This document shows, one piece after another, positions 8,987 through 37,536 of a DNA stretch of 41,543 nt. The notes beneath the pieces were generated by a model that was given only the letters and a program-made list of their open reading frames with translations, was not told the DNA's origin and did not search any database. Made by a program: the position numbers and the translations under genes. This DNA comes from Sandaracinobacteroides hominis (lineage in GTDB: Bacteria; Pseudomonadota; Alphaproteobacteria; Sphingomonadales; Sphingomonadaceae). The stretch is taken from positions 1 through 41,543 of the forward strand of contig NZ_JADCUC010000010.1 in NCBI RefSeq assembly GCF_016464365.1, read 5' to 3'. Every line of letters starts with the position of its first letter. Positions within the stretch are counted from its first letter, which is position 1.

Positions 8987-11704
8987 ATGACGAAGCGTAA
9001 GCATCAACTCCTGACCGAGAGCGAACGCGATCAGATCCTCGCCATCCCGAGCGAGCGCGACCATCTAGCCCGGCTCTACACCTTCGAGCCTTCGGACATC
9101 GAGATCATCGGCGCACGACGGGAGCGACGGAACCAGTTGGGTGTCGCGCTGCAACTCGCGCTCTTGCGGCACCCGGGCATCACACTGGCGCAGTTGATAC
9201 AGGACAAGGGAGCGATACCCCATGATCTCGCCGCCTTCGTCGCGGAACAACTTGGTCTACACGTAACCGACCTGGCCAACTATGCAGCGCGGGATCAGAC
9301 GATGACGGACCATGCCCGCGAGCTGGCGATGCGAGCGGGCCTTCGTGGACCAACCCGCGCCGACATTCCCTTCATGATCGAAGCGGCCGCGAAAACGGCA
9401 TGGGCGACCGACAAGGGGATGACGATAGCGATCGGCGTTGTCACCGCCCTTCGCGAGGCCCGGATTCTACTGCCGTCCATCTCCACCATCGAACGCGCCA
9501 GTAGTGCGGGACGCGCGCGTGCCCGCAAGCAGGCTGCCTACGCCCTGATCGCTGATCTTAGCGCCGAACAGGTCCACGCCCTCGACCAGGTCTTTGACGA
9601 CGCCGGCGGCATGAGCCAACTCGCTTCGCTCAAGACCATTCCCGTTGCGCCCAGGCCCGATCACATCCGCCAGATTCTCGACCGCCTGCGGCAAGTGCGG
9701 AAGATCGGCATCTCCCCGGACGTGGCTGGCCGCATCCATGCCGACCGATTTCGGCAATATGTCAGGGAAGGCCGCGCTTCGCCTGCCTATATGATCGAGC
9801 GATATATTCCCTCCCGACGGCGCGCTACGCTGGTTGCGTTCCTGCTCGACCTCGAGGAACGACTGACCGATAACGCCTTGGAGATGGCGGACAAGCTGAT
9901 CGGCAGCATCTTCACCCGCGCGAAGAACGCCCAGGCGCGCAGCTATGCCACCACGTCAAAGAATGTGGCGCGGCTGATGCTGATCTTTCGCAGGACAATC
10001 GACGCATTGACCGATGCGGTCGATACCGGCGAAGATCCAATGGAGGCCCTGGACGCATCGGTCGGGTGGAACACCCTCCTGAAGGCGAGGCCAGAAGTGG
10101 CGACAATCGCGGAAACCGCCAACCTTGATCCGCTGACGGTGGCGGCCGACCGCTATGCGACGTTGCGCAAGTTCGCCCCCGACCTGCTTGAGGCGCTCCA
10201 GTTCAGGGCCGGAAAGGGCAGTGCAAAAACGATCGCCGCCATCGAGATGCTGCGCGACCTCAACAGGTCGGGCAAACGCGATCTGCCTGCCGACGCTCCG
10301 ATGCCCTTCCGCAAGGAATGGCGGAAAATCGTCGTGGGCGATGACGGCAAGATCAACCGGCGTCTCTGGGAAATCGCGACGATCGCGCATCTGCGCAACA
10401 AGCTGCGTTCCGGGGATGTCTGGGTGGAGCGATCGGCAGGATACCGCCGGTTCGACAGCTACCTGCTCAGCGAACCCCAGGCGAAGCCGATCGTGTCGGC
10501 TCTCGGTCTGCCACCCACAGCCGGCGAATGGCTCGAACAGCGGGGCCGCGAACTTGACTGGCGGCTTAAGAAATTTGCCCAGCGCCTGAAGCGCGACGCT
10601 CTGGAGGGTGTGCGATATCGCGACGACCGCCTCCAGATATCCCCCGTTCGCACGATCGCGACGCCCGACGCCGAAGCGCTGGCCGACCGGCTCGATGCCA
10701 TGATGCCACGCATCCGCATCACCGAGCTACTGCATGAGGTGGCGCAGGAAACCGGCTTTCTTGCGGCGTTCACCAACCTGCGTACCGGCGAGCCGTGTCC
10801 CAATGAAAACGCGCTGCTCGCCACGATCCTCGCCGATGCGACCAATCTCGGCCTGTCGCGCATGGCGGCGGCGAGTCAGGGCGTCACGCGCGATCAGCTC
10901 CTCTGGACCCATGACGCCTATATCCGCGACGACAGCTACCGCGCGGCGCTGGCCCTCCTCATCAACGCGCACCACCGCCTGCCATTCTCACGAGTATGGG
11001 GCGACGGCACCACGTCCAGTTCCGATGGCCAGTTCTTCAGGGCCGCGAAGCGCGGCGCGTCGGGCGGCGATATCAACGCCCGCTATGGCGTCGATCATGG
11101 CTTCAGCTTCTACACCCATAATTCTGATCAGCGCGCGCCCTACCACGTCAAAGTGATCTCGGCCGCGACGCATGAGGCGCCCTATGTCCTCGACGGCCTC
11201 ACCAGCCACGGCACCGATCTCAGGATCGTCGAGCATTACACCGACACCGGCGGGGCGACCGATCATGTCTTCGCCCTGTGCGCGATGCTGGGATTTCGCT
11301 TCTGCCCGCGCCTGCGCGACTTCCCCGACAGGCGGCTCGCGCCGATCGCGCCGGTCACGGCCTATCCGTCCATCACCCCGCTGTTGGGCAAGCGTATCCG
11401 CACCGACATCATCGGTGAGCAATGGGAAGACGTGCTGCGCCTCGTAGGGTCGATCAAGGCCGGCCATGTCGCGCCATCGGTCATGCTGCGAAAGCTCGCT
11501 GCCTACGAACGGCAGAACCAGCTCGATGTCGCGCTACAGGAAATCGGCAAGATCGAGCGGACGCTGTTCATGCTGGACTGGCTAGAAAATCCCGATCTGC
11601 GCCGGCGATGCCATGCCGGTCTCAACAACAGCGAGCAGCGCCATGCCCTGACGCAGGCGATCTACACATTCCGCCAGGGCCGCATCATCGGGGTCAGTAC
11701 ATAG
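8987..11704 (+). CDS. tnpA: Tn3-family transposase, C-terminally truncated
   Basis: About 901 residues of a Tn3-family DDE transposase that would normally have about 990-1000. The N-terminal DUF4158-like domain (KHQLLTESERDQIL) is intact. The catalytic region shows the first Asp in TTSSSDGQFF, the second in TDHVFALCAMLGFRF and the Glu in LNNSEQRHAL. At 11690 homology stops: the last four codons (GVST) and the TAG come from the inverted repeat of Tn3 no. 2. The conserved ending (NLVxxAIVLWNT and LSPLGWxHINLTGDY) is absent, so the enzyme is probably inactive. ATG 8987 was chosen over 8927 because it begins the family-typical MTKRKHQLL and clears the res region. Confidence 0.9.
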   Translation: MTKRKHQLLTESERDQILAIPSERDHLARLYTFEPSDIEIIGARRERRNQLGVALQLALLRHPGITLAQLIQDKGAIPHDLAAFVAEQLGLHVTDLANYAARDQTMTDHARELAMRAGLRGPTRADIPFMIEAAAKTAWATDKGMTIAIGVVTALREARILLPSISTIERASSAGRARARKQAAYALIADLSAEQVHALDQVFDDAGGMSQLASLKTIPVAPRPDHIRQILDRLRQVRKIGISPDVAGRIHADRFRQYVREGRASPAYMIERYIPSRRRATLVAFLLDLEERLTDNALEMADKLIGSIFTRAKNAQARSYATTSKNVARLMLIFRRTIDALTDAVDTGEDPMEALDASVGWNTLLKARPEVATIAETANLDPLTVAADRYATLRKFAPDLLEALQFRAGKGSAKTIAAIEMLRDLNRSGKRDLPADAPMPFRKEWRKIVVGDDGKINRRLWEIATIAHLRNKLRSGDVWVERSAGYRRFDSYLLSEPQAKPIVSALGLPPTAGEWLEQRGRELDWRLKKFAQRLKRDALEGVRYRDDRLQISPVRTIATPDAEALADRLDAMMPRIRITELLHEVAQETGFLAAFTNLRTGEPCPNENALLATILADATNLGLSRMAAASQGVTRDQLLWTHDAYIRDDSYRAALALLINAHHRLPFSRVWGDGTTSSSDGQFFRAAKRGASGGDINARYGVDHGFSFYTHNSDQRAPYHVKVISAATHEAPYVLDGLTSHGTDLRIVEHYTDTGGATDHVFALCAMLGFRFCPRLRDFPDRRLAPIAPVTAYPSITPLLGKRIRTDIIGEQWEDVLRLVGSIKAGHVAPSVMLRKLAAYERQNQLDVALQEIGKIERTLFMLDWLENPDLRRRCHAGLNNSEQRHALTQAIYTFRQGRIIGVST

Positions 11705-11727
11705 AACGGACCCAGATATACGCTAAG
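11690..11727 (+). repeat. Left 38-bp inverted repeat of Tn3 no. 2
   Basis: It begins GGGGTCAGTACATAG and ends ATATACGCTAAG. It differs from the right copy only at positions 5 and 7. It is inserted in the tnpA of Tn3 no. 1 after its GRII codons and supplies that gene's new stop codon. Confidence 0.9.
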
Positions 11728-11743: not shown

Positions 11744-11768
11744 CAGGTGTCGGCAAACACCTGTTTTT
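11744..11768 (+). terminator. Rho-independent-like terminator near left end
   Basis: CAGGTGT and ACACCTG form a 7-bp stem with a 6-nt loop followed by TTTTT. It would stop transcription entering Tn3 no. 2 from the truncated tnpA. The same sequence (20 of 25 bases) recurs inverted near 33805-33831 upstream of the second resolvase, so it may instead be a transposon-specific element. Confidence 0.5.
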
Positions 11769-11951
11769 CGTACATCCGTAAGAAATGGCGTGGTTTAGGA
11801 CAGTGCTGCCGTTCCAAATTGATAGATCGGATGGCAGGTCCTGTCTGGAGCCGACATACATCGTTTGCCTGACTGGCATCACAGATCGGCAGAAAGTGGG
11901 CCGATTGTTGACCGTCCTCTTTTGGGGAGAAATCGGCTAAAGCTGCCGTCA

Positions 11952-12005
11952 AGCAGCTGACTCTTAATCAGCGGGTCCTAGGTTCGAGCCCTAGTGCGTC
12001 CACCA
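11952..12005 (+). tRNA. 3' half of tRNA-Lys (CTT), att-like fragment
   Basis: Anticodon stem GCTGA/TCAGC with loop CTCTTAA (anticodon CTT, Lys), T-arm CTAGG-TTCGAGC-CCTAG, and acceptor strand TGCGTCC with discriminator A and encoded CCA. The 5' half (acceptor GGACGCA and D-arm) is missing: the upstream bases do not pair with the acceptor strand. It is therefore not a functional tRNA but the piece typically left or carried by an element that integrates into the 3' end of a tRNA gene. Confidence 0.75.
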
Positions 12006-12538
12006 CATTTCCCTTTTTCGTAAATCAGATACTGAGCTTGCGAGATCGGGCTATTGAGAGCATTTTTTGCTAAGCAGCTCTCTACGTAGCGGAGCGCTAA
12101 TTCGGCGCTGCAGTGCAGTGAACGGTTCATGGCCTGCGCTCTGTCGAACTGAGCTTGAGCGAGTAATCGGCTCACCTTCCCGCCAGCGGCGCACGCTGGG
12201 ATGGCAGCTCGGAAACTCAGGCAGCGCGGTGTCGTGCTGACAGCTAGGCCGCCCGAGCTTCGATCCAGAGCGCCCGATGGACAAGAATGACGCCCTTGGC
12301 TGGATGCCCTGCCAGCTCGGATACGCCCCATAGACGGTAAGAACGGTCAGACGGTTATTCGTGGAGGCTAAGAGCAGATTGGGGCCAGGGGCGTGATAGG
12401 CCTGGTGCTCGAACCGTCAGTCGCGCAGCACCCGCTCGATAGCGGTGTCGACACTGGTCCGATCACCGCACCGCTGAGCGCCTACCGCCGATCCGGTTTG
12501 CGTTCTGTTCCTTCGAGCGATAATATCGTCATCTGACG

Positions 12539-13369
12539 CTAAAGCATCTCGAGTGGACGGGGCTCGCGTGGCCTGGGAAATTCCGCATCGAGTGTCGCAA
12601 TGTCGGCGTCGGAGAGCACGATATCTGCGGCCGCGCGGTTCTCCCGCACATGTGCAATCGAACTCGCTTTCGGGATGGCGATAAGGCCATCGTGGCGCAA
12701 CGTCCAGGCAAGTGCGACCTGCGCAGGGGTTGCGCCAACCTGGGCCGCTACTTTGTCGAGGGCGGGATGGCTTGAGAGGCGTCCCTGCTCGACGGGACTA
12801 TACGCCATCACTGGCACTTTGTGCTGGGCGAGCCACGGCAACAGGTCCAACTCAGGGCCTCGACGGACGAGATTGTAGAGGATCTGATCGGTCACGCAGC
12901 CATCCCCACCGGCAGCGACAAGCTCGTCCATATCGTCAGTATCGAGGTTGCTGACACCCCAATGCCGAATCTTTCCTGCCGACTTCAGCGCCTCCATTGC
13001 CTCTATCGTTTCGGCGAGCGGCACCGATCCCCGCCAGTGGAGCAGGTAGAGGTCGAGCCGATCGGTGCCGAGCCGCTTCAGGCTCGCCTCGCACGCACCG
13101 GCAAGGCGGGAGCGCGATGCGTTCTGTGGATACGCCTTGCTGACGAGGAACAACTGGTCGCGACGATCGCCGAGCGCTTCGCAGATCAGCGTTTCCGCGG
13201 CGCCATCGCCGTACATTTCGGCCGTATCGATGAGCGTCATGCCCAGTTCGACACCGGCGCGTAGCGCGGCGATCTCATCGGATCGGCGCTCGGGACGTTC
13301 GCCCATCTTCCAGGTGCCTTGACCCATCGAAGGAACCACTTCCCCGCCGGGCAATGTCACGTGTTTCAT
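12539..13369 (-). CDS. Aldo/keto reductase
   Basis: A 276-residue NADPH-dependent aldo/keto reductase that reduces aldehydes and ketones, including methylglyoxal-like dicarbonyls, to alcohols in the cytosol. The catalytic tetrad is visible: Asp48 and Tyr53 (IDTAEMYGDG), Lys78 (LVSKAYP), His111 (YLLHWRG). The nucleotide-binding end shows YSPVEQGRL and AIPKASSIAHVREN. It resembles the YeaE-type bacterial reductases that act on methylglyoxal. ATG 13369 starts MKHVTLPGG, the usual N-terminus; the open frame upstream is antisense-like. It lies 76 bp downstream of the tetR gene in the same direction, so probably shares its promoter and control. Confidence 0.88.
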   Translation of the reverse strand: MKHVTLPGGEVVPSMGQGTWKMGERPERRSDEIAALRAGVELGMTLIDTAEMYGDGAAETLICEALGDRRDQLFLVSKAYPQNASRSRLAGACEASLKRLGTDRLDLYLLHWRGSVPLAETIEAMEALKSAGKIRHWGVSNLDTDDMDELVAAGGDGCVTDQILYNLVRRGPELDLLPWLAQHKVPVMAYSPVEQGRLSSHPALDKVAAQVGATPAQVALAWTLRHDGLIAIPKASSIAHVRENRAAADIVLSDADIATLDAEFPRPREPRPLEML

Positions 13370-13445
13370 GTGCTTTCGTCCTATGAGATGAGTTCGACTG
13401 TTCGGTCGCCGGAGGCGCGATTGGCAGATGACCACAATGTAACGA

Positions 13446-14066
13446 TCATATCGCGGCCGGCCATCGATCGAGTGCCATTTTGGCGATGGAGAGCAGTTCG
13501 TTGATCGTAGCGCCGTCGCGCGCCTGAACGGACATGCCTTCCATGACCGTATTGATGAATTTGCCCAGCACGGCCGGATCGGTGTTGGCCGCAAGCTCGC
13601 CCTGCGCGGCGCCGCGTTGCAGACGCTCGATCAGGAGGGCCTCCGCCGCGATACGCTTGTCGCGCAGCAGGCATTCGATGTCGGCGGACGCCGGCGAAAC
13701 GGCTGCCGCTGCCGAATACATGAAGCAGCCGGCCGGCGTTCCAGGCTCCGAGAATGATGACGCCGCCCGTTCCAGCAGGCCTTTGACGGCCTCGTAGGTG
13801 GACAACGCCGGATCGTTGATGGGTGCATAGAGGTGGACGCTGAACGTCGCGGCGTAGCGCTCGATCACCGCCGCAAACAGCCCCGCTTTGTTGTCAAACG
13901 CTGCATAGAGACTGGCGGCGGCGACGCCAGTCTCCGCCACCAGATCGGCCATCGATGTCGCCTCGTAGCCGCGCTGCCAGAACAGCCGCACCGCCTTGTC
14001 GAGCGCAGCGTCAGTGTCGAACACACGAGGGCGACCTGCGCGGCGACGGGCTTTCGTCTCTGTCAT
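13446..14066 (-). CDS. TetR/AcrR family regulator
   Basis: A 206-residue repressor. The N-terminal helix-turn-helix is clear (LDKAVRLFWQRGYEATSMAD followed by GVAAASLYAAFDNKAGLFAA), and the C-terminal ligand domain contains a single Cys (PAGCFMYSAAAAV), a possible electrophile sensor as in NemR-like regulators, though that is inference. It is divergent from the quinone oxidoreductase gene, with 96 bp between them carrying two direct-repeat operators, and upstream of the aldo/keto reductase. Likely de-repressed by reactive carbonyls or quinones. Confidence 0.88.
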   Translation of the reverse strand: MTETKARRRAGRPRVFDTDAALDKAVRLFWQRGYEATSMADLVAETGVAAASLYAAFDNKAGLFAAVIERYAATFSVHLYAPINDPALSTYEAVKGLLERAASSFSEPGTPAGCFMYSAAAAVSPASADIECLLRDKRIAAEALLIERLQRGAAQGELAANTDPAVLGKFINTVMEGMSVQARDGATINELLSIAKMALDRWPAAI

Positions 14067-14083
14067 CTCTGGTGCACGATATG

Positions 14084-14149
14084 GAACGATCGATAAATAA
14101 TATCTTGAAACGAGTGGTTCCCTCCCTTACAGAACGATCACTAAATAAT
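14084..14149. promoter_or_regulatory. Direct-repeat operator pair for the TetR regulator
   Basis: GAACGATCGATAAATAAT (14084-14101) is repeated as GAACGATCACTAAATAAT (14132-14149), 16 of 18 identical, spaced 48 bp in the divergent promoter region. The second copy abuts the ribosome-binding site AAGGAG (14151-14156) of the oxidoreductase gene; the first lies close to the tetR start. This suits simultaneous control of both directions. Confidence 0.65.
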
Positions 14150-14162
14150 CAAGGAGTCTCCA

Positions 14163-16363
<2,201 letters not shown>

Positions 16364-16757
16364 CCCGCCGATCCGAAGCGGCGCGAGGCGCTCGGATCGA
16401 CAACTCGGCCGTCATCATGGCCCGACCCCGGCCATGATGACGCGCGCTCTGGCAAATGGGCAACGCGTCGCGATGCGGTAACAAGCGCCGAAGTGCGGTC
16501 GTTACATGCCGATAGCGGCACGGACCAGGGCCGCCTGGCCCAGGCGCTTACCAGCGGAGTGTGTGTGGCCTCGTCGCGCGACCCAACGGGAAAAATGGTT
16601 TTGTCGGAACCTTTGTCTGATGCTGGAGAAATATTTCAAAATTGCCGAACATCGGGCCAGCGTGGCCGTTGGATGTATTGAGTTGGAAATGCATTCATCT
16701 GTTACCCGACTGTGATGAACCACGGGCCGCACGGGCGTATAGGGCAGGAATACTGAA
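16364..16757. other. Intergenic region between frmA and uvrA-like gene
   Basis: It holds the perfect hairpin at 16410-16442 and, further right, short GC-rich dyads (AGGGCCGCCTGGCCC near 16529). No gene is supported: the open frames here lack ribosome-binding sites. The promoter of the uvrA-like gene should lie here, but no clear -35/-10 pair or SOS box was identified. Confidence 0.5.
16410..16442 (+). terminator. Perfect 13-bp hairpin after frmA
   Basis: CGTCATCATGGCC and GGCCATGATGACG are exact inverted arms with a 7-nt loop, 46 bp after the frmA stop codon. No T-run follows, so it is a hairpin-type or Rho-assisted terminator at best, or an mRNA-stabilising structure. Confidence 0.5.
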
Positions 16758-19418
16758 TTGAAGAGCAAGGATATTCACGCGACGACGCAGGCCACCGATC
16801 ATGGGCATAGGGGGCCGCCCGCTTGCGTGCAGGTTCGCGGCGCGCGCCAGAATAACCTCAAGAATGTTGACGTCGATGTACCGCGCGACGCCTTCGTGGT
16901 GTTCACCGGCATATCGGGCTCGGGCAAGTCATCGCTCGCGTTCGGCACCCTTTATGCCGAAGCCCAGCGGCGTTATCTGGAATCGGTTGCGCCCTATGCC
17001 CGTCGCCTGATCGACCAGGCCGGCGTGCCGGAGGTCGATGCGATCGACGGTTTGCCGCCTGCGATCGCGTTGCAGCAGCAGCGCGGATCGGCCAACGCGC
17101 GATCCTCGGTCGGCAGCGTGACGACGCTCTCCAGCCTGGTGCGGATGCTCTTTTCGCGCGTCGGCGAATATCCGCGCCATCAACCCATGCTCTATGCGGA
17201 GGATTTCTCCCCCAACACGGTCGCCGGCGCCTGCCCGACCTGTCACGGCATCGGGCGCGTCTATGACGCGACCGAAGAAACGATGGTGCCCGACGACACG
17301 CTGACGATCCGGGAACGCGCAGTCGCCGCTTGGCCGGCGGCATGGCATGGCCAGAACCTGCGCGATATCCTCGTGTCGCTCGGCTATGACGTCGACACGC
17401 CGTGGCGCGATCTGCCGAAGAAGGATCGCGACTGGATTCTCTTTACCGACGAGGCGCCGACGGTGCCGGTCTATGCGGGCCTGACGCCCGAACAGACCCG
17501 CGTGGCGCTGAAACGCCGCATGGAACCGAGCTATCAGGGCACCTTCACCGGCGCGCGCCGCTATGTGCTGGAAACCTTCGCCAACACGAAAAGCGCGCTG
17601 ATGAAGAAGCGCGTCTCGCAATACATCATTGGACGCGATTGCCAGACCTGCGACGGCAAGCGGCTGAAGCGCGAAGCCCTGTCCGTGAAGTTCGCGGGCC
17701 TCGACATCGCCGAGTTCGGCGATCTGACGGTGTTGAAACTCCGGGACTTGCTCACGCCCGTCGCGCATGGCGAATATGGGGGCGCCGCGGCGGTCCCGAA
17801 GGGCCATGTCCTCGGCAAGGCGGCCCGCGATGCGGCGGTCGAACGGCGGGTCGCGGCAGGAGGTTCGGCGCACAAGGCTGCGCCCGACGTGCGCCGCACG
17901 CCCAATCTTTCCGATGAAAAGCGGATCGCCGCCCAACGCCTTGCCTGCGAATTGATCGAGCGGTTAGAGCCGCTGATCGATCTTGGCCTTGGCTACATTT
18001 CGCTCGACCGCAGCACGCCGACGCTCTCCTCCGGGGAGCTGCAGCGCTTGCGGCTTGCCACGCAATTGTCGTCACAGCTTTTCGGCGTGGTCTATGTGCT
18101 TGACGAGCCATCGGCAGGGTTGCACCCGGCAGATGGCGAAGCCTTGCTCACCATCCTCGAGCGTCTCAAGGCGGCGGGCAACTCCCTGTTCGTCGTCGAA
18201 CATGATCTCGACGTGATCCGCCGCGCGGAATGGCTCGTCGATGTCGGGCCGGGAGCCGGGGAAAAGGGCGGCGAAGTCCTCTACAGCGGGCCGATAGAGG
18301 GGCTTGCCGACGTCGAGACTTCGATCACCCGCCGCTACCTGTTCGCAGAGCCGCTCCGCAGTGAGCGCACACCGCGCGATCCCAAGGCATGGCTACGCCT
18401 GGAAGGGATCAGGCGGAACAATCTTCATGGTCTCGACGTCGAGTTTCCCATCGGCTGCTTCACCGCTGTCACCGGCGTTTCGGGATCGGGCAAATCCAGT
18501 CTTGTCAGTCAGGCGCTGCCCGAGCTCGTCACGGAACACCTCGGCGGCTCTCCCGTGGCCGAGGAGGAGGATATCGATCCGCTGCTCGATGTTGCGCAGA
18601 ACGACACTGAAGGACGCATTGTCGCAGGCATGGAGCACGTTCGCAGGCTGGTGCGGGTCGATCAGAAACCGATCGGCCGCACGCCGCGGTCGAACCTGTC
18701 CACCTACAGCGGCATGTTCGACCATGTGCGACGGATCTTCGCTGATACGCCGCTCGCCCGCCGGCGGCACTACAGCCCGGGAAGGTTCTCGTTCAACGTC
18801 GCGCAAGGCCGCTGCCCTGTGTGCGAGGGCGAGGGATACGTCATGGTGGAGCTGCTGTTCCTGCCGAGCGTTTTTGCCACGTGCTCGACCTGTTATGGCT
18901 CTCGCTACAACCCGCAAACGCTCGAAGTCGAATGGAACGGGCGCAATATCGCCCAGGTGCTCGAACTGACGGTCGACGATGCGTGCGATTTCTTCGCTGG
19001 CGAGGCATCCGTGATGCGCTCCCTCGCCGTGTTGCGGGAGATCGGTCTTGGCTATCTGAGGCTCGGTCAGCCTGCAACCGAGCTGTCTGGCGGGGAGGCG
19101 CAGCGCATCAAGCTGGCGACTGAACTGCAACGCGCTCAACGCGGCAACACGATCTACATCCTCGACGAGCCAACTTCGGGGCTTCACCCCTCCGATGGCG
19201 ACCGGCTGATGCAACACCTGCAGGGCCTCGTAGACGCCGGCAATACCGTCGTAGTCGTCGAACATGACATGCGCGCCATCGCCCAGACGGACTGGGTCAT
19301 CGACCTGGGACCGGGGGCCGGGGAAGATGGGGGCCGTATCGTTGCCAGCGGCGTCCCTGGCGTCGTTGCGGAAGCGGAAGGCAGTCTCACCGCCCGCTAT
19401 CTCAAGGCGGCGCTGTAG
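16758..19418 (+). CDS. UvrA2-like excinuclease ATPase
   Basis: An 886-residue tandem ABC ATPase of the UvrA family, UvrA2/short branch (canonical UvrA has about 940-950 residues). First ATPase: Walker [13 protein letters not shown] (51-62), signature [15 protein letters not shown], Walker [14 protein letters not shown]. Second: [41 protein letters not shown]. Zinc pairs CPTC/CQTC and CPVC/CSTC are present. UvrA recognises helix-distorting DNA adducts. UvrA2 proteins usually lack the UvrB-interaction part and are tied to tolerance of DNA-damaging agents and drug export. The start is a TTG preceded by CAGGAA, with no better alternative. Lying between two formaldehyde dehydrogenase loci, it may act on aldehyde-derived DNA adducts; this is inference. 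Confidence 0.88.
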
Positions 19419-19575
19419 GTCGTAAATCTGGCCGAACGCACGTTCGATCAGGTGTATCTCACCCACACGTTGGAATGGCTCGAATCTGTAAGCGGGAGCC
19501 GGCGATGTGTCACCGCGGTTGACGCGGCTTAGGGTTTGAGCGCCCGTCAGGTGCGCCGTGTTCGTGTGATACGCG

Positions 19576-28890: not shown

Positions 28891-28898
28891 ACCTGCTG

Positions 28899-28932
28899 GC
28901 GCCCGTGCCCGGGGCGTGCCGGGCACGGGCGC
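28899..28932 (+). terminator. Perfect 14-bp hairpin after recombinase
   Basis: GCGCCCGTGCCCGG and CCGGGCACGGGCGC are exact inverted arms with a 6-nt loop, starting 8 bp after the recombinase stop codon. It is very GC-rich and is followed by TGGGACATTG, not a T-run. It is probably a terminator and possibly also a recombination-related dyad. Confidence 0.6.
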
Positions 28933-29131
28933 TGGGACATTGCCGTCGTTCTGTCACGACGTGTTCAACGGCAACTTTTTGCCAAAAGGCGACGCTCAAT
29001 GCTCGCTGGACTGGCCACGCACAGGGGCTGCAATAGGGCTGGCAGCGGACTAGTGGCTTTTGGACAAGAATTTCTGAATGCAGTCGATCAAAGGATCGTC
29101 TGTTTGAGGATTCGTGGTAGGGATCTCTGTC

Positions 29132-30000: not shown

Positions 30001-30975
30001 ATGACTAAGGCCACGCATATCGTCGCCTTGCTCCAAAGTCATTTCGACGGGGACGATGAGCATTTCATGACGGTCGCCATGCAGGCGGCCGCTAATGAGG
30101 CGCGCCTGGGCCACGGCAAGGTCGCGCAGCAGTTGCGCGACATGGTCGACGAGGCGCGCGCGCGCAAAAAGATCAAAGGCCGCGCGGTGCCGATGGTTCA
30201 GCCGCGCGGCGAGCTCGCCAATCTGGTCGCGGCCAAATATGTCGACACCCGGATCTCGAGCATGGTCCTGCCCGACCATCTTCGCGATCGTCTCGAGCGC
30301 GTGATCCTCGAACAGCGCCAGGCCTTTCGGCTGCGTCAGCATGGCCTGCAGCCGCGCCGCAAGCTGCTGCTGATTGGTCCTCCGGGCGCGGGCAAGACCA
30401 TGACCGCAGCCGCCATGGCCGGCGAGCTTAAGCTCCCGCTCTTCTCGGTGCTGCTCGACGGTCTCCTGACCAAGTTCATGGGCGAGACCGCCTCGAAGCT
30501 GCGCGCAGTCTTCTCGGCCATGGTCGAGACGCGCGGCGTCTATTTCTTCGACGAGTTCGATGCGATCGGCGCGCGGCGCAGCGAGCGCAACGATGTTGGC
30601 GAGATCCGCCGCGTGCTCAACTCCTTCCTCCAATTTCTAGAGGAGGACGACAGTGAAGGTCTCATTGTCGCCGCGACGAACCATCCCGAGCTGCTCGACC
30701 CGGCCCTGTTCCGCCGGTTCGACGACGTGATCGAATATGCCCTGCCGAGCGCCGATGTGGCCCGCGCCATCCTCGAGGGGCGCTTGTCCACCTTCGACAC
30801 CGGATCGCTCGAATGGGACCGGGCGACAAAGGAGATCGAGGGCTTGAGCCAAGCCGATCTCTCCAGGATCGCCGACGAGGCAGCCAAGCGCACGCTGCTA
30901 GGCGGACGCGAAAGCGTCGAGACCGATGATCTTCTGGCCGCCATCGCGGAGCGCAAGGCGGCGGCGCGTCGGTAA
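30001..30975 (+). CDS. ietA: IetA-like AAA ATPase (antitoxin/defence component)
   Basis: A 324-residue AAA+ ATPase. Walker A GPPGAGKT (126-133), Walker B YFFDEF (181-186), sensor-1 Asn227 (AATNHPE) and arginine finger in LFRRFDD (238-239). The N-terminal helical region (EARLGHGKVAQQLRDMVDEA) is typical of the IetA group. In the Agrobacterium Ti-plasmid ietA-ietS locus the ATPase counteracts the protease, giving plasmid stability and incompatibility; homologous ATPase-protease pairs are also reported as anti-phage systems. The protease gene starts 2 nt after this stop codon. The start at 30001 is supported by N-terminal similarity rather than by a ribosome-binding site. Confidence 0.85.
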   Translation: MTKATHIVALLQSHFDGDDEHFMTVAMQAAANEARLGHGKVAQQLRDMVDEARARKKIKGRAVPMVQPRGELANLVAAKYVDTRISSMVLPDHLRDRLERVILEQRQAFRLRQHGLQPRRKLLLIGPPGAGKTMTAAAMAGELKLPLFSVLLDGLLTKFMGETASKLRAVFSAMVETRGVYFFDEFDAIGARRSERNDVGEIRRVLNSFLQFLEEDDSEGLIVAATNHPELLDPALFRRFDDVIEYALPSADVARAILEGRLSTFDTGSLEWDRATKEIEGLSQADLSRIADEAAKRTLLGGRESVETDDLLAAIAERKAAARR

Positions 30976-30977: not shown

Positions 30978-33476
30978 ATGGCAGACGAGGACGCGCGGCC
31001 GCACCCGCATATCTATCTCCGGTCCAACGGTGCACGCCAGGGCTACACCGCCCATCAGGGCGGCGGAGATGGCGGTGGCGGTCCGCCGCAGCGCAACCGG
31101 GCCGATCACGCCAATGCCTTGACCCAGGCCCTGACCCAGGTCGTGCAGCAGGGCGAGACGATCCTCGCCAATCGCGAAGCCAATGTCGCTGCCGGCACCA
31201 AGGGTTTCTACATCGAATTTACGCTGCCTGAAGCCCAGGCCGACATCGTCGACAAGCTGGAGAACCGGCGCGGCAAGTTTCCGATTGAGCTGGTCAATGT
31301 CCGCGCCGCCGACGCCGGCCAGGTCTTCGCGACCGTCTTCGTCCCCGAGAAGCAGAAGGACTATTATCTCAAGAAGGTCGCTGCCTACCGCGATGAGGAC
31401 AGCGTCAAAGAGAAGATCCGCGAAGACGGCACGGTCGAGGAGGTTCGCAAGCCAAAGAACCAGCTGCTCGTCGCATCGATCGAAACGGCCCGCCTCGCGG
31501 TCGCGCGGTCATTCTACACCGACCAGCCCGATCTTTTCCCCGCTCCGGGCCAGGCGGCATGGTGGGAAATCTGGCTCCGCAAAGGAACGCGGCCCGCCTT
31601 CGACACCGCGGCGCTGGCTCTGGAGCTTGGCGTGCGCGAGCACAGTCTGGAGTTCGCCGAACGCGAGGTCGTGATCGCGCGCAGCACGCCCGAGCAGCTC
31701 GGGCGCGTTGTCGCCCACACCGACAGCGTCGCCGAAATCCGCCTCGCACGCGATACGCCGTCCTTCTTCATGGGCATGCATGGCGCGGAACAACGGGCCT
31801 GGAGCGCCGATCTCGCCGGACGGCTCGTCCCTTGCGCCGACGACGCCCCGGCGGTCTGCCTACTCGATTCCGGGACGACCATGGGCCACGCCCTCATCGC
31901 TCCTTATCTCAACGCTGCGGACCAGCAGGCCTTCGACGCCGGATGGAGTGTCGAGGATTCTAGCAATCAAGTCCATGGCGGGCACGGCACGCAGATGTCC
32001 GGGACGGCGCTCTACGGCGACCTCATGGAGGTGCTCGATGGCAATGGCCCGGTGGAGGTTCGCCACCGCCTGGAATCGGTCAAGATCCTGCCCGACCACG
32101 GTGCTAACGATCCTGATCTCTACGGCGCCATCACCGCCCAATCGATCGCGCGGGCCGAGATCGTCGCTCCCAACCGCCCGCGTGCCATCTGCCTCGCCAT
32201 TACGAGCTTTGGCGATCATTGGCGCGGACGCCCCTCCTCCTGGTCGGCCAAGCTCGACGCCATGACCTTCGGGCGCGACGAGGTCCAGCGTTTCATGGCT
32301 GTCGCCGCAGGCAATATTGGAGGCCAGATCGTCGCAGCGGACTATCCCACCCGCAACGACACCATGCCGATCGAAAACCCGGCCCAAGCCTGGAATGTGC
32401 TGACCGTCGGCGCCTTCACCGAGCGCACCGTCATCACAGATCCCGCCTTTGCCGGATGGAGTGCGCTCGGCCTTGCCGGCGACATCATGCCGCGCAGCCG
32501 TACCTCGGTGAGCTGGCACCGCGAATGGCCTTTGAAGCCGGACGTTGTCTTCGAAGGCGGCAATATCGGTCATGACCCTGCCACCGGGAACGGCGATCAT
32601 GTCGATGATCTTGCCCTGCTCACCACCTATCGCATTACCGCCGAGCGCCCGTTCACGACGACCGGGGACACGAGCGCGGCGACGGCGCTCGCGGCCCGGA
32701 TGGGCGCGCAGATCCTGGCGGAGAAGCCAGCACTGTGGCCGGAGACCGTGCGCGGCCTCATCGTCCATTCAGCTGAATGGACTCCGGCGATGCGTGCGAA
32801 CCAAGGCGCGATCGGCAAACCCGCCCTGCTACGCCGTTATGGGTTCGGCGTCCCTTCACTAGCAAGAGCGCTGGGCAGCCTCGACCACGACGTGACGATC
32901 GTCGCCGAGGAGATGCTCGTCCCATTCAAGATGAAGAGCGGCAAGGCGGTCACTGACGAACTCGCCGTCCATGCTCTGCCTTGGCCGCGCGAGACGCTGC
33001 TGGCGCTCGGCGAAGCGCAGGTCCAACTGCGGATCACACTCAGCTATTTCATCGAACCCAATCCTGGTGAGCGGGGCCTGTCGCGCCGCCATGTCTATGC
33101 CAGCCACGGCCTTCGCTTCGACCTCAAACATGCCGACGAACAGCTCGACGTGTTCTTGCGTCGACGCACCTCGGAAGCCGGAGCACGGCCGCCGGCGCGC
33201 ACCGCGCCGGACACCGGCTGGACCGTCGGTCCCCAGCTGCGCAGCCGCGGCTCGCTTCATGCCGATATCTGGGAAGGCATGGCGACCGAACTCGCCGCCC
33301 GCGATGCGATCATCGTCTATCCGACCGGGGGCTGGTGGCGCGAGAACGTCGCCCAGGGACATGTCGGTGAAGCGGTGCGATACAGCCTGATCGCCAGCAT
33401 TAGGGCCGCTCCAGGAGCGGAGCTATATGCTGAGGTCAAGGCGCAAATCGTCCCCGAAGTTATTATCGAAGCGTAG
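30978..33476 (+). CDS. ietS: IetS-like subtilisin (S8) protease
   Basis: An 832-residue S8-family serine protease. Catalytic triad: Asp297 (VCLLDSGTT), His336 (GGHGTQMSG), Ser566 (TTGDTSAATA); oxyanion Asn446 (AAGNIGG). The first about 280 residues form an extension without a signal peptide, so it acts inside the cell; the C-terminal about 200 residues form strand-rich domains. In the known IetAS systems the protease is the toxic effector. Partner and gene order (ATPase first, 2-nt gap) match. It is intact and well suited to stabilise the transposon's replicon or abort phage infection; the protein target is unknown. Confidence 0.88.
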   Translation: MADEDARPHPHIYLRSNGARQGYTAHQGGGDGGGGPPQRNRADHANALTQALTQVVQQGETILANREANVAAGTKGFYIEFTLPEAQADIVDKLENRRGKFPIELVNVRAADAGQVFATVFVPEKQKDYYLKKVAAYRDEDSVKEKIREDGTVEEVRKPKNQLLVASIETARLAVARSFYTDQPDLFPAPGQAAWWEIWLRKGTRPAFDTAALALELGVREHSLEFAEREVVIARSTPEQLGRVVAHTDSVAEIRLARDTPSFFMGMHGAEQRAWSADLAGRLVPCADDAPAVCLLDSGTTMGHALIAPYLNAADQQAFDAGWSVEDSSNQVHGGHGTQMSGTALYGDLMEVLDGNGPVEVRHRLESVKILPDHGANDPDLYGAITAQSIARAEIVAPNRPRAICLAITSFGDHWRGRPSSWSAKLDAMTFGRDEVQRFMAVAAGNIGGQIVAADYPTRNDTMPIENPAQAWNVLTVGAFTERTVITDPAFAGWSALGLAGDIMPRSRTSVSWHREWPLKPDVVFEGGNIGHDPATGNGDHVDDLALLTTYRITAERPFTTTGDTSAATALAARMGAQILAEKPALWPETVRGLIVHSAEWTPAMRANQGAIGKPALLRRYGFGVPSLARALGSLDHDVTIVAEEMLVPFKMKSGKAVTDELAVHALPWPRETLLALGEAQVQLRITLSYFIEPNPGERGLSRRHVYASHGLRFDLKHADEQLDVFLRRRTSEAGARPPARTAPDTGWTVGPQLRSRGSLHADIWEGMATELAARDAIIVYPTGGWWRENVAQGHVGEAVRYSLIASIRAAPGAELYAEVKAQIVPEVIIEA

Positions 33477-33935
33477 CGCAGCTATCCGCGTTCGCGTCAC
33501 CTACGGGCAGCTTTCAGGGTCGATTGGGGAAACTTGAAATGGCCGCATTGATGGCGCCTTCCGGACGGTCCGGTTCGGAGTGTCATACTGGCAAGTTTTG
33601 TCAGGAGCCGACGTTCGCGGTGGCTGATCTGACCGACCGGGTTTGGTCGGCACCTGCCGTCCCGACTAGGAAGGTCGATTGAGAACGATGGTCCCCGTAA
33701 CGCCGAACCACGGCCACGGGACGGGCTTTCCCAAATCCTGTTCCCGATTGCCTTTTCCCGAAATGGTGTCGGATCGACGGAAAAATGGGACGCTGTAACC
33801 TGCCGAGAAACACATGTTTTCGGACACCCTTGGGTGATCCCTCGGCTTTGGTCGGCAATCCTGCGCCTGAATAGTCGACAAACCCTGTCGCTTTGACGTA
33901 GTGTACGACAAAGTGGTTTTGAGGGTTTGTCGTAC
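33477..33935. other. Non-coding region upstream of second resolvase
   Basis: 459 bp without a supportable gene. It contains resolvase-site-like dyads at the right end and, at 33805-33831, an inverted diverged copy of the sequence found at 11745-11770 just inside the left end. Open frames on the minus strand lack starts and are not protein-like. Confidence 0.5.
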
Positions 33936-33936
33936 A
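33873..33936. promoter_or_regulatory. Putative res subsites of Tn3 no. 2
   Basis: TGTACGACAAA (33902-33912) and TTTGTCGTACA (33926-33936) form a perfect 11-bp inverted repeat with a 13-bp spacer, ending at the resolvase start codon. A looser dyad (GTCGACAAACCCTGTCGC, from about 33874) lies just upstream. This matches the expected arrangement of resolvase-binding subsites beside tnpR and implies autorepression. Confidence 0.65.
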
Positions 33937-34520
33937 TGCTGGTCGGATATATGCGAGTGTCATCGGCCGATGATCGCCAAACTGTCGATCTTCAGCGCGA
34001 CGCTCTGGTCGCGGCGGGTGTCGATCCGCGTAATTTGCATACTGATAAGGCATCGGGAGCACGCGACGATCGACCGGGCCTGAAGGACTGCCTCGATTAT
34101 TTGAGTGCGGGTGATACGCTGATCGTGTGGAAACTCGATCGGCTTGGGCGATCGTTGCCGCATTTGCTGGCGATCGTCTCTGACCTAAAGGCGCGTGGCA
34201 TCGCGTTCCGTTCGCTGACTGAGCAGATGGATACGAACACGCCGCACGGCGAACTGCTATTTTCGCTGTTCGGCGCGCTGGCGCAATATGAGCGCGCGCT
34301 GACGCGCGAGCGGGTGATGGCGGGACTGGCGGCTGCAAAGCGTCGAGGGCGCCAGGGTGGACGGCCTCCCATGATCGACACTGAGACCCTTGAACGGATT
34401 ACTGCCGCGCTTGATGGCGGAGCAAGCAAGGCATCCGTTTGTCGCACCTTCAAGGTGCCGCGTTCGACCTTGATTGGCACTCTTGCCCGGATCGGTTGGG
34501 CGCCGCCCGCTAGAGCCTAA
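33936..34520 (+). CDS. tnpR: Tn3-family resolvase (serine recombinase)
   Basis: A 194-residue serine resolvase. MLVGYMRVSS carries the nucleophile Ser9; DRPGLKDCLDYLSAGDTLIV, KLDRLGRSLPHLL and GELLFSLFGALAQYERALTR follow. The C-terminal helix-turn-helix is DGGASKASVCRTFKVPRSTL. ATG 33936 lies at the end of a perfect res dyad; an upstream TTG start would read through that site. tnpA follows 4 nt downstream in the same orientation, unlike the divergent arrangement in Tn3 no. 1. It is not closely similar to the first resolvase, so the two transposons belong to different lineages. Confidence 0.92.
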   Translation: MLVGYMRVSSADDRQTVDLQRDALVAAGVDPRNLHTDKASGARDDRPGLKDCLDYLSAGDTLIVWKLDRLGRSLPHLLAIVSDLKARGIAFRSLTEQMDTNTPHGELLFSLFGALAQYERALTRERVMAGLAAAKRRGRQGGRPPMIDTETLERITAALDGGASKASVCRTFKVPRSTLIGTLARIGWAPPARA

Positions 34521-34524
34521 CCCG

Positions 34525-37503
34525 ATGCCTCGTCGCGCCGTGCTGTCGGACGAGCAACGCATGGCGTTGCTCGCACTTCCCGATGATGAAACCACGCTCG
34601 TTCAGCACTGGACGTTGAGTGAGGATGACCTGGCTATCATCGTGCGCCGCAGGCGACCGCATAATCGTCTGGGTTTCGCGATCCAGCTATGCGCGCTGCG
34701 CTATCCCGGCCGTTTGCTGCGCCCGGGCGAATTGATCCCCGATACGCCGCTCGCGTTCGTCGCCGAGCAATTGCAGATCGCGCCCGAGGTGCTGGCCGAT
34801 TATGCGACGCGCGGCCCGACCCGGTACGAACAGCTCGATGCGCTGCGCGAGGGCTTTGGGTTCACACAGTTCAGCCGGCCATTGCGAGCGGCGTTGCAGG
34901 AATGGCTGCTGCCGATTGGGCTGACGACGACCAGCGGGGCTGGGCTGGCACGGTCGCTACTAGGCGAGTGCCGACGACGGCGCATCATCGTACCTGGCAT
35001 CAGTTCGGTCGAACGGATGGTTGCGCAGGCGTTGCTCGACGCCGAGCGCCACGTCGCCGAGCATCTGACCCGAGGGCTGGAGACTGGGCAACGCCGTCTG
35101 CTTGACGCCCTTCTTCTGCCTCACGCCGGCACGAACCTCAGCGGCCTCGGATGGGTGCGGCAGCCGCCCGGCAAGCCCGGTCGCAAGACGTTCGCCGTCA
35201 TCATCCGGCGGCTAGCTCTGCTGCGCGATATCGGGATCGATCCCGATATCGCGGCAGGCATACATCCCGAACGCCTGCGACGCCTCTGTCAGGAAGGGGC
35301 TCGGCTGACGGCGCAACATGTCCGGACGCTGCAAGCAACGCGGCGCCGTGCGACGCTGGCGGCAACCGTACTCGAAACCATCGTCACGCTTACCGACGAT
35401 GCGGTGCTGATGTTCGACCGCCTGCTGGGTCAGATGTTTCGGCGCGAGCAGAACGGTGCAGACACAGCGCTCAAGCGCGACCGGCGCACCATCAATGGTA
35501 AAATCCGGCTACTCGCCCGGCTCGGCGATGCCCTGCTCACTGCCAAAGTGTCGGGCGGCGACATCGGCGCCGCGGTCGAGGCCGTAGTTGGATGGGACGA
35601 TCTCGGCCGTGAAGTCGATGAAGCCCGCAAGCTGATCCGCCCCGATGCCGTCGATCCCGTTACGATCGCCGCTACCAACTACCCCGTCCTCCGACAGGTC
35701 GGTCCCTTGTTCATCGCCTCGTTCACGTTCGGAGCGGTCCCGGCCTGCCATACGCTCGCGCGAGCAGTCGCTATCATGCGCGACCTTCATCTCGGTCGCC
35801 TGAAAAAACTGCCGCCGGATACGCCGGTTGCCTTCATTCGGCAGGCCTGGCGTCGCGCGATCGGCCCCGGCATTCCCGATCGCAGAGTTTATGAATTTTG
35901 CGTCCTGGTCGAGCTTCGGGACAGGCTTCGTGCCGGCGACATGTGGGTCGAGGGAAGCAGACGCTATCGTGCCGTCGAGCAACAGCTTATTCCTGGCCCG
36001 GTATTCGCCACCATGCGGGCAGCCGGCCCTTTGCCGATTCCGGCACCTGATACGGCCGATGCCTGGCTAGCCGAACGGCGTACCCGGCTCGCCCGTAGAT
36101 TGGCAGAGGTCGAGCGAAAAGCGGAGACGGATACGCTGGAAGATGTACAACTCAGCCTCGGCAAGCTGCGGATTTCGCCGTTGAAGGCGGTCACGCCGGC
36201 TGAAGCGGATAGCGCCCTTGCGCCGCTTTACGCCCATCTTCCCGCGATCCGCATCACCGATCTCCTTGCTGAAGTCGATCGATGGACCGGATTCAGCCAG
36301 TGCTTTACGCATCTGCAAAGCGGTCGGGTTGCCGATGAACCCCGCGCTATCCTCACGGCGGTGCTCGCCGATGCAACCAATCTTGGTCATACGCGCATGG
36401 CTGAAGCCTGCAATCTCGTGACCCAACGCCAACTCAGCTGGCTCGCCTCGTGGCATTTACGCGAGGAAACCTACGGTCGGGCTCTCGCCAGGTTGGTCGA
36501 TGCCCAGCACACCGCGCCACTCGCCGCCCTGTTTGGGGCCGGGACATCGTCCAGTTCGGATGGTCAGAACTTCCCGCTCGATCGCCGTGCCCAGGCGACC
36601 GGTGCGGTCAATCCGCACAAGGGCGCGGAGCCTGCCGTCTCCTTCTACAGCCATGTCTCGGATCGCTACGCGCCGTTTCATTCCACCGTCATCTCCGCAT
36701 CCGCGAGCGAGGCGGCGCAGGTGCTGGACGGGCTGCTCCATCACGGTGCTGATCTGCACATCGAGGAGCATCACGTCGATGGTGGGGGCATTTCCGACCA
36801 TGTATTTGCGCTATGCCATCTACTCGGATTCCGGTTTGCGCCGCGCATACCGAATATCTCCGCGCGCCGGCTTTACCTGTTTGACGGCATCGAACCCGGC
36901 CCCGATATTGCGCCGCTCCTCGCGGGCAAGGTCGATGAGAGCCTGATCGCTGCCCATTGGGACGACGTGCTGCGCTTGGGCACCTCGATCCGCACCGGCG
37001 TCGTGAGTGCGTCAATCATGCTGGAACGGCTTGGCTCCTATCCCCGCGCCAATGGCCTGGCCTTGGCACTGCGCGAGATCGGCCGCGTCGAGCGCACCCT
37101 GTTCACGCTCGATTGGATCGAACAACCCGAACAGCGGCGTCGCGCGACCCGCGAACTCAACAAGGGTGAGGCCGAAAATGCGCTGAAACGCGCCATCTTT
37201 TTCCACCGGATCGGCCGTATCCGCGATCACGCATTGCAAGCCCAGACCCATCGAGCGAGCGCACTCAACCTCGTCGCCGGTGCTATCGTCCTCTGGAATA
37301 CGACCTACATGCAAGCCGCCCGCATGCATCTTGCCAGTCTAGGCCGGTCGATCCCGCCGGACCTGCTGCAACACCTTTCGCCGCTCGGATGGCAGCACAT
37401 CAACCTCACCGGCGATTATCTTTGGACCGACCCCGATGCACCATCGCCGGCCCTCAGGCCGCTTCGCCAGATGCACGCCGTCGAAGGCCCGGCGAAACCT
37501 TAG
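34525..37503 (+). CDS. tnpA: Tn3-family transposase, full length
   Basis: A 992-residue replicative DDE transposase of normal length. The N-terminal DUF4158-like domain begins PRRAVLSDEQRMALLALP. Catalytic residues are the Asp in GTSSSSDGQNF, the Asp in ISDHVFALCHLLGFRF and the Glu in LNKGEAENALKRA. The conserved ending NLVAGAIVLWNTTYMQ and HLSPLGWQHINLTGDYLW is present. Its TAG stop lies inside the right inverted repeat, tying gene and element end together. No frameshift is seen, so it should be functional and able to mobilise DNA between the two matching inverted repeats. Confidence 0.95.
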   Translation: MPRRAVLSDEQRMALLALPDDETTLVQHWTLSEDDLAIIVRRRRPHNRLGFAIQLCALRYPGRLLRPGELIPDTPLAFVAEQLQIAPEVLADYATRGPTRYEQLDALREGFGFTQFSRPLRAALQEWLLPIGLTTTSGAGLARSLLGECRRRRIIVPGISSVERMVAQALLDAERHVAEHLTRGLETGQRRLLDALLLPHAGTNLSGLGWVRQPPGKPGRKTFAVIIRRLALLRDIGIDPDIAAGIHPERLRRLCQEGARLTAQHVRTLQATRRRATLAATVLETIVTLTDDAVLMFDRLLGQMFRREQNGADTALKRDRRTINGKIRLLARLGDALLTAKVSGGDIGAAVEAVVGWDDLGREVDEARKLIRPDAVDPVTIAATNYPVLRQVGPLFIASFTFGAVPACHTLARAVAIMRDLHLGRLKKLPPDTPVAFIRQAWRRAIGPGIPDRRVYEFCVLVELRDRLRAGDMWVEGSRRYRAVEQQLIPGPVFATMRAAGPLPIPAPDTADAWLAERRTRLARRLAEVERKAETDTLEDVQLSLGKLRISPLKAVTPAEADSALAPLYAHLPAIRITDLLAEVDRWTGFSQCFTHLQSGRVADEPRAILTAVLADATNLGHTRMAEACNLVTQRQLSWLASWHLREETYGRALARLVDAQHTAPLAALFGAGTSSSSDGQNFPLDRRAQATGAVNPHKGAEPAVSFYSHVSDRYAPFHSTVISASASEAAQVLDGLLHHGADLHIEEHHVDGGGISDHVFALCHLLGFRFAPRIPNISARRLYLFDGIEPGPDIAPLLAGKVDESLIAAHWDDVLRLGTSIRTGVVSASIMLERLGSYPRANGLALALREIGRVERTLFTLDWIEQPEQRRRATRELNKGEAENALKRAIFFHRIGRIRDHALQAQTHRASALNLVAGAIVLWNTTYMQAARMHLASLGRSIPPDLLQHLSPLGWQHINLTGDYLWTDPDAPSPALRPLRQMHAVEGPAKP

Positions 37504-37536
37504 CGTATATCTGGGTCCGTTCTATGTACCGCCCCC
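37499..37536 (-). repeat. Right 38-bp inverted repeat of Tn3 no. 2
   Basis: It reads CTTAGCGTATAT inward to CCGCCCCC outermost and is the reverse complement of the left repeat with two mismatches. It contains the tnpA stop codon (37501-37503) and an ATG (37524) that opens the radC remnant frame. Confidence 0.92.

Follow-up and report, generated by a model that had tools for sequence, protein, structure and literature searches.

A Tn3-family transposon of Sandaracinobacteroides hominis with a probable passenger slot between two resolvase site I-like sequences

We analysed a contig stretch of Sandaracinobacteroides hominis (41,543 nucleotides, NZ_JADCUC010000010.1, assembly GCF_016464365.1; hereafter the window) that carries a 25.8-kb mobile unit with a putative carbonyl detoxification island and an IetAS-like ATPase-protease gene pair. 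Judged from sequence, two 38-bp inverted repeats in the window form the pair of ends of a single Tn3-family transposon, a relative of ISMpo10. The cargo is bounded by two directly oriented sequences resembling site I of res, the site of the resolvase TnpR, and homology to relatives with other cargo breaks off near the centres of both. Taken jointly, these observations are probably best explained by an ISMpo10-related Tn3 unit with a slot exchanged by TnpR, a mosaic cargo within it, and flanks that were rearranged.

The transposon, its ends and its relatives

The unit spans 11690-37536, with about 22 kb of cargo between its ends. Its backbone consists of the following features:

11690-11727, plus strand: left inverted repeat (IRL), 38 bp; the same 38 bp are found in the element of Sphingomonas sp. 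ERG5
11749-11773, plus strand: left resolvase site I-like palindrome, centre 11760, left edge of the cargo slot; matches res site I of two cargo-free relatives
33802-33826, plus strand: res site I, centre 33813, right edge of the cargo slot; found with the site pattern
33876-33936, plus strand: inverted repeats that we name, provisionally, res sites II and III
33936-34520, plus strand: tnpR, serine resolvase of 194 amino acids; reading frame open and complete
34525-37503, plus strand: tnpA, Tn3 transposase of 992 amino acids; reading frame open and complete
37499-37536, minus strand: right inverted repeat (IRR), 38 bp, from end-repeat comparison

IRL and IRR agree at 36 of 38 positions and face each other in Tn3 fashion, with GGGG outward and TAAG inward. 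The chance expectation for so good a pair is about 6e-10 in a window of this size, and the inner 32 bp of the ends, at up to three mismatches, matched these two places alone in the 3.53-Mb genome. The same contig and contig 5 also carry more distantly related end repeats, which belong to other Tn3 elements. The DDE domain of TnpA is complete (PF01526, positions 1-389 of 389, 462 bits). A full-length TnpA, ends of about 38 bp running from GGGG to TAAG, and a serine resolvase with an adjacent predicted res are all features by which Tn3-family membership is recognised in sequence. These results bear out a first-pass annotation of the window, which had described two 38-bp repeats in the right orientation around an intact tnpR-tnpA pair and some 22 kb of detoxification and ATPase-protease genes, and had read the whole as a single Tn3-family unit. 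The unit may still be able to move.

The two ends belong together because the same asymmetric pair (GGGGTCAG on the left, GGGGGCGG on the right) recurs in sibling elements, one of which has a perfect 5-bp target duplication. The siblings are those of ERG5, of a Rhizorhabdus metagenome-assembled genome (G400, the same element as in ERG5) and of the Sphingomonadaceae genome 3R27E2-A (G397), and their right parts are 99.6-99.8% identical. The 3R27E2-A unit has chromate genes as cargo and is the one with the perfect duplication, AGATC. The closest known system is the 8.8-kb ERG5 element on plasmid pCADAB1 (NC_022235.1), which shares the ends, tnpR-tnpA and the two-site cargo slot. Window positions 33808-37537, up to the right end, are 99.8% identical to it; its left end (GGGGTCAG...) is 97.7% like that of the window over 87 bp, and it shares the right end (GGGGGCGG...) as well. 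Its cargo differs, being a tripartite efflux system with a TetR gene, about 5 kb in all. ISMpo10, a name taken from record annotation, has the same order of tnpR, tnpA and right end at about 85% DNA identity, but is 4.9 kb long and differs in its left-end sequence, its lack of a left site I and its cargo (DUF417/MarR). Since the sequence inside IRL is different, the window unit is a relative of ISMpo10 and not a copy.

When one genome per species was scanned for the inner repeat, 89 stretches came up, mostly from sphingomonads, and 80 of them (loci L060-L139) were classified. For a census of complete units, facing ends with up to six mismatches were paired across 172 records. This gave 16 end pairs; RIT328, whose unit is divided between two loci, was included manually. 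The resulting 17 places represent 11 distinct elements, with Sphingomonas sp. NIC1 counted twice, as its outer and inner pairs share one right end. A 5-bp duplication flanks eight of the 17: 3R27E2-A (AGATC), RIT328 (ACCTT), G399 (TACTC), Sphingobium wenxiniae (AGAGA), the outer NIC1 pair (AGATC) and three ISMpo10 places (TACCT, GTATT and TGATC). Units of this kind therefore move with 5-bp duplications. The nine places without one are the window, ERG5, G400, G401, Leaf21, three ISMpo10 places (including the inner NIC1 pair) and L095. In NIC1 (L021, 4280-11662), the left end of ISMpo10 is present a second time, 2.5 kb beyond a complete ISMpo10; of the two pairs thus formed, the outer has the AGATC duplication and the inner has none.

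A probable passenger slot bounded by two sites

The left site lies 21 bp inside IRL and points in the same direction as res site I at 33802-33826. In two cargo-free relatives, from Sphingobium Ant17 (L104) and Novosphingobium 17-62-19 (L112), site I lies 21 bp inside IRL and leads directly into sites II and III and then the beginning of tnpR; tnpR is broken in L104, and L112 was compared from its left end to the tnpR start. As site I stands beside IRL in these cargo-free units, the left site of the window corresponds to the res site I of an empty element.

Homology to differently loaded relatives ends close to both sites. On the left, the ERG5-type, L064 and L117 edges, from siblings whose backbone is almost the same, match the window up to 4 bp past the site centre, with 0, 0 and 1 mismatches in 75 bp, followed by 32, 34 and 29 mismatches in 50. 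On the right, the comparison with ERG5 shows 45 of 60 positions mismatched beyond a point 5 bp to the left of the centre, and none of 120 from that point rightward. The less close loci L154 and L054 show the same step, from 47/60 and 40/60 to 11/120 and 10/120. Left ends were compared in 24 rows, 20 of them distinct over 120 bp, and the site scan covered 20 chosen loci, 15 of which had the left site. Both sites, in direct orientation and with no more than three mismatches, are present in six of the 11 distinct elements, namely those of the window, ERG5/G400, G401, Leaf21, RIT328 and S. wenxiniae.

For toxin-antitoxin modules, published work describes exchange of the left portion of Tn3 transposons at res site I, and the Tn5501/TnTsp1/Tn4662a group, as it appears in excerpts of PMC7157771, shares with the window a passenger exchange that breaks at this site. 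The break between differently loaded relatives expected of such an exchange is found here to within about 5 bp. The two systems differ in what is swapped: in the Tn5501/TnTsp1/Tn4662a group it is the whole left end, IRL included, at a single res, according to the same excerpts, whereas the window-type left end remains with its backbone, and the cargo is delimited by an additional site I.

The simplest account of this arrangement, and a probable one, is as follows. TnpA would act on the two 38-bp ends of a paste-and-copy Tn3 transposon, and TnpR would resolve the cointegrates at res, just upstream of tnpR. Among loaded members of this left-end type the order is IRL, site I, cargo, site I, site II, site III, tnpR, tnpA and IRR, with the passenger block inside site I. 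TnpR would exchange or insert passenger blocks bounded by half-sites at this position, and related backbones would in this way acquire genes for efflux, chromate, arsenic, iron uptake or defence. In the window, the slot holds a mosaic of the plasmid-borne carbonyl island with its tRNA-Lys attachment fragment, a tyrosine-recombinase fragment, a T5orf172 gene and the IetAS-like pair.

Several observations weigh against this interpretation. Five of the 11 distinct elements lack the two-site slot. In ISMpo10 (six places, more than 99% identical) and the outer NIC1 unit the left-end sequence is a different one and no left site is present, and ISMpo10 bears cargo all the same. Neither site is seen in G399, the 3R27E2-A unit has the left site alone and its homology to the window begins inside tnpR, and the 1.2-kb unit at L095 has one site in opposite orientation. 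Given these exceptions, the slot belongs to one left-end type and not to the whole group. The central dinucleotides also differ, with CC in the left site and CA in the right. One clean resolvase reaction would not leave unlike central dinucleotides, which calls for a minimum of one additional step, or for drift. The low mismatch counts of the sites are partly so by construction, because the pattern was written by eye from these very sites; shuffled windows gave on average 0.32 hits at that mismatch level, and at most three. ERG5, L072 and L090 share one cargo edge, and therefore the breaks amount to three independent ones per side. The unit with the window's cargo is known from a single place, and the window copy has no 5-bp duplication (TCATC on the left, ATGCC on the right), although the first-pass annotation had looked to such duplications for support.

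Some of these points are shared by a different and somewhat unlikely explanation, under which the left site is a resolvase-binding control site near the left end, the breaks reflect conservation of that binding site, and the cargo entered by homologous recombination, insertion sequence (IS) elements or nested transposons. Tn5401 offers a precedent, with extra recombinase-binding sites near its ends (described in part of PMC7157771). Nearly all left sites keep their right arm, which is consistent with a binding function, as are the unlike dinucleotides of the two window sites and the presence of cargo genes in ISMpo10 without a left site. In L104 and L112, however, the site beside IRL is itself res site I, and sites II, III and tnpR come after it. 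Moreover, the left end stays linked to tnpRA while the cargo varies, so that there must be two breaks. We favour a slot exchanged at site I, where TnpR would have made the exchanges.

Flanks, junctions and other origins

The two flanks of the unit are unrelated and contain the following features:

6834-11689, plus strand: older Tn3-family element forming the left flank, with an end repeat at about 6834-6879, tnpR at 8277-8921 on the minus strand and tnpA from 8927
37539-38051, plus strand: radC-like open reading frame (ORF) of the right flank; homology begins at the junction

IRL truncates the tnpA of the older element; the DDE domain is incomplete at its end, and the right end of that element is gone. 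On Sphingobium AntQ-1 pl4 the same tnpA is unbroken and reads ...CATCATC/GACCGCAGCC..., where the window reads ...CATCATC/GGGGTCAG. The remainder of the truncated gene was not located elsewhere in the genome among the 40 of 62 candidates that were scored; this search returned only a 46-bp end repeat of the older element and a 72% stretch of another tnpA, and the idea that the lost end sits elsewhere in the genome was rejected. On the right, the radC-like ORF lacks about 90 N-terminal residues relative to Sinorhizobium meliloti RadC (39% identity), although its exact N-terminus is uncertain, as two further RadC paralogues of the same genome align from residues 70 and 78. Going by this alignment, the gene was probably cut by the unit. 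No close plasmid relative was found for the right flank along its length.

With mismatched flanks and no duplication, the window copy stands at a rearranged junction. A duplication belongs to an insertion and not to the element, and eight of the 17 related places have one; its absence here weakens the view that the copy is still where it first landed. Two different targets joined by one transposon are an outcome of Tn3 adjacent deletion or of recombination between two copies. Adjacent deletion through intramolecular transposition, or recombination of two copies, may accordingly have joined the cut tnpA to radC, and either route would fit these flanks.

The different genes on the two sides and the lack of a duplication could also mean that the two repeats stem from independent insertions, or from two copies, and do not delimit one transposon. 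This is unlikely in view of the same asymmetric pair in the siblings, one of them perfectly duplicated; a hybrid of two copies of the window's own element is possible and is already covered by the explanation that we favour. Still less probable is entry of the cargo into res as a res-hunting transposon of the Tn5053/Tn402 type that later eroded. A TnsB/TnsC-like gene pair does lie at the res of the same backbone in Sphingobium sp. CECT 9361 (G403; L156, 3044-6759), probably as part of a Tn402-type insertion; we take the pair to be TniA/TniB of a Tn402-like element. The scanned ORFs of the window cargo include no such pair, and a second site I would not be expected from that route. Insertions of this type at res are on record, in an excerpt of the literature. 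An assembly error at one end is very improbable: the assembly is a draft of 21 contigs and contig 2 ends inside a tnpA repeat, but ordinary reads are longer than the 38-bp repeat, either end has a single genomic match, and the sequences on the two sides bear no relation to each other.

Further genes surround these features. In the right flank, 39379-40797 encodes a DNA methylase fused to an Mrr N-terminal domain and adjoins a DUF6878 gene. To the left of the older Tn3 element, 179-5254 holds genes for a TonB-dependent receptor, a PepSY protein and a tyrosine recombinase. On contig 2 of the genome (G000:C2, L006), two copies of another Tn3 end (GGGGGCGCTACATAGGACGGGCAC...) with tnpA fragments occur downstream in the same direction, at 44632-45159 and 50574-51065; the second runs past the contig edge.

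The cargo is a mosaic

The cargo consists of blocks with separate relatives. Its features, from left to right, are:

11793-12011, plus strand: attachment-site-like fragment; this 219-bp piece follows an integrase-like ORF in G200
11888-28092, strand not assigned: putative carbonyl/formaldehyde detoxification island, common, with gaps, to other Sphingomonadales plasmids
12539-13594, minus strand: aldo/keto reductase ORF (PF00248)
13446-14066, minus strand: TetR-type regulator ORF (domain match)
14163-15152, plus strand: zinc-binding dehydrogenase, quinone oxidoreductase-like (profile match)
15254-16363, plus strand: S-(hydroxymethyl)glutathione dehydrogenase, AdhC/FrmA (724 bits, cut-off 544; start set by a relative)
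16758-19418, plus strand: UvrA-like excinuclease subunit (profile match)
19675-20244, minus strand: DJ-1/PfpI family protein (domain match)
20276-21415, minus strand: zinc alcohol dehydrogenase (annotated in relatives as glutathione-independent formaldehyde dehydrogenase)
21722-22396, minus strand: HbpS-like ORF (domain in the C-terminal part)
22650-23390, minus strand: short-chain dehydrogenase (domain match)
23467-24948, minus strand: L-dopachrome-tautomerase-related (MRJP) ORF (profile match, relatives)
24615-25727, minus strand: NADH:flavin oxidoreductase of old-yellow-enzyme type (domain match)
25721-26176, minus strand: glyoxalase/VOC family protein (domain match)
26179-27156, minus strand: DJ-1/PfpI (HchA-like) ORF (profile match)
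27048-27962, plus strand: LysR-type regulator (domain match)
28141-28890, plus strand: tyrosine recombinase, within a block that comes from elsewhere
29114-29752, plus strand: T5orf172/MUG113 (GIY-YIG-type) protein (domain match)
30001-30975, plus strand: IetA-like AAA ATPase with intact Walker A motif GPPGAGKT
30978-33476, plus strand: IetS-like subtilase, S8 (Pfam domain match)

Largely the same island, with gene order kept and 93-97% DNA identity, is present on plasmids of four other Sphingomonadales: Qipengyuania HL-TH1, Sphingopyxis terrae YC-JH3, Sphingobium xenophagum C1 and Croceicoccus marinus OT19. No pair of window-type ends encloses it on any of these plasmids, within the match and 8 kb on each side. 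The island is therefore not cargo special to the window transposon, a possibility that we rejected on finding it on many plasmids. Gene content varies at several points. An frmR repressor gene, annotated in Qipengyuania, S. terrae and S. xenophagum, is missing in the window, at 15187-15191, and, by alignment, in Croceicoccus; the formaldehyde dehydrogenase gene of the window may consequently be deregulated. The HbpS-like gene, present in the window, is missing by alignment in Qipengyuania, S. terrae and S. xenophagum (L017, L018 and L019). The reductase at the left edge is missing in S. xenophagum and partly missing in S. terrae, both of which have IS insertions, and the alignment shows the Croceicoccus island without most of the formaldehyde dehydrogenase gene. 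On S. terrae plasmid pStJH (L018, 27633-27775), the right border of the island adjoins a left-type end that includes site I and lies in inverted orientation; on this plasmid, too, a related transposon may therefore once have carried the island. Our literature search on the carbonyl island found nothing relevant. From the predicted functions of its genes, the island may protect its host against carbonyls.

At the left edge of the cargo, positions 11952-12005 (54 bp) are identical to the 3' end of the tRNA-Lys(CTT) of the genome, and the 219-bp piece that includes them looks like an attachment site, since in G200 (L055, 13266-14727) it directly follows an integrase-like ORF; ParB-type genes nearby suggest that this is an integrative plasmid. 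The genome's own tRNA-Lys was rejected as the present insertion site, as the full tRNA lies on contig 12 with no island within 3 kb around it. At the other end of the island, the block at 28171-28973 is 91.6% identical to Novosphingobium resinovorum pSA3.

Relatives of the IetAS-like block, at 74-78% identity, occur elsewhere. A Novosphingobium capsulatum plasmid carries a remnant that is 99.8% identical to the final 1.7 kb of the block and ends at window position 33649, and 33660-33801 is about 75-77% like the region upstream of tnpR in Sphingomonas NY01. The pair matches the PADLOC models for IetA (1.2e-68) and IetS (3.2e-27), given here without PADLOC's own cut-offs. It resembles IetAS (IteA/IteS in NCBIfam) in the adjacency of an AAA ATPase and an S8 protease. 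The difference lies in the NCBIfam equivalog scores, which fall far under the cut-offs for IteA (189.6 of 510 bits) and IteS (38.3 of 900 bits), and we therefore call the pair IetAS-like and not IetAS. Simple patterns for the subtilase triad and Walker B went unmatched; by eye, Asp, His and Ser stand in S8-like settings. A sequence search of the IetS-like protein against solved structures gave no match. The two genes are likely an anti-phage pair and may protect the host against phages.

At least some part of the cargo is matched by 146 records, none of which covers 80% of the cargo query. The carbonyl island and the IetAS-like pair were found jointly nowhere but in the window genome, and the pair is an acquisition separate from the island. 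In family samples (397 genomes drawn from a larger group, with two candidates scored per genome), the IetS-res-tnpR junction is spanned by the window genome alone. Nor was the complete unit found at a second place in these samples, in the one-genome-per-species scan or among 92 loci with related ends; none of the 92, most of which are 8 kb or shorter, matches the window cargo. The first-pass annotation had proposed a coherent new passenger set, to be sought behind the same 38-bp repeats in other genomes. No such recurrence was found, related ends enclose other cargo, and the set itself dissolves into a shared plasmid island on the one hand and the IetAS-like pair and other pieces, with their separate relatives, on the other. 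Its proposed counter-evidence, the same cargo order without Tn3 ends, is nearly what the plasmids show, although not the chromosomes that it had named.

Defence genes behind related ends

The S. wenxiniae unit (L056, 6674-18505; G196:C22, matching NZ_VLKK01000022.1) has a perfect duplication, AGAGA. Its cargo comprises a CBASS set (phospholipase, E2 and cyclase), a type IIG restriction enzyme and a T5orf172 gene. The unit ends in a res, with site I at three mismatches and sites II and III read by eye, followed by IRR; no relative of the window's tnpR or tnpA was found inside it. It is thus similar to the non-autonomous Tn3 derivatives of the TIME and IS101 types, which have ends, and some of them a res, without tnpA, as far as the available parts of PMC13367494 and PMC4133298 describe them. 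Those derivatives are miniature, whereas the S. wenxiniae unit bears about 11.6 kb of cargo, largely defence genes.

In Novosphingobium sp. Rr 2-17 (L133, 784-2179), a phosphoribosyltransferase gene of the retron III-A type stands directly behind a decayed left end. The 155-amino-acid ORF beside it, which has no Pfam match, is presumably the start of the reverse transcriptase. Cargos of other related units include genes for chromate, arsenic and iron uptake, an amino-acid racemase-type enzyme, an aldo/keto reductase, a mobilisation protein and transporters; this survey scanned chosen ORFs and gives no frequency for defence genes. A non-exhaustive literature search found no description of Tn3 units with defence cargo among the titles and abstract openings listed. 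Tn7-like transposons, in the excerpted part of PMC8649781, are alike in combining defence genes with other cargo, and differ from the window unit in transposase family and mechanism.

The transposon of the window belongs to a known family, and its carbonyl cargo is a plasmid island present elsewhere. New to us are the two-site slot of one left-end type and the repeated occurrence of defence genes behind related ends. It is possible, if tentative, that this left-end type acts in sphingomonads as a cassette-exchanging platform that uses its own TnpR and leaves a hybrid site on each side. Such a platform would also collect defence systems (IetAS-like, CBASS with type IIG, perhaps retron III-A), including in a transposase-free unit moved in trans with a 5-bp duplication. 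For toxin-antitoxin passengers, the molecular route to the res of Tn3 transposons is called unclear in an excerpt of PMC7157771. The copy of site I on each side of the cargo, the cargo-free relatives and the differently loaded siblings make a related question testable here by a simple resolvase assay. The related units also show defence genes in Tn3-type transposons, beyond the Tn7-type units in which they are well described (in part of PMC8649781).

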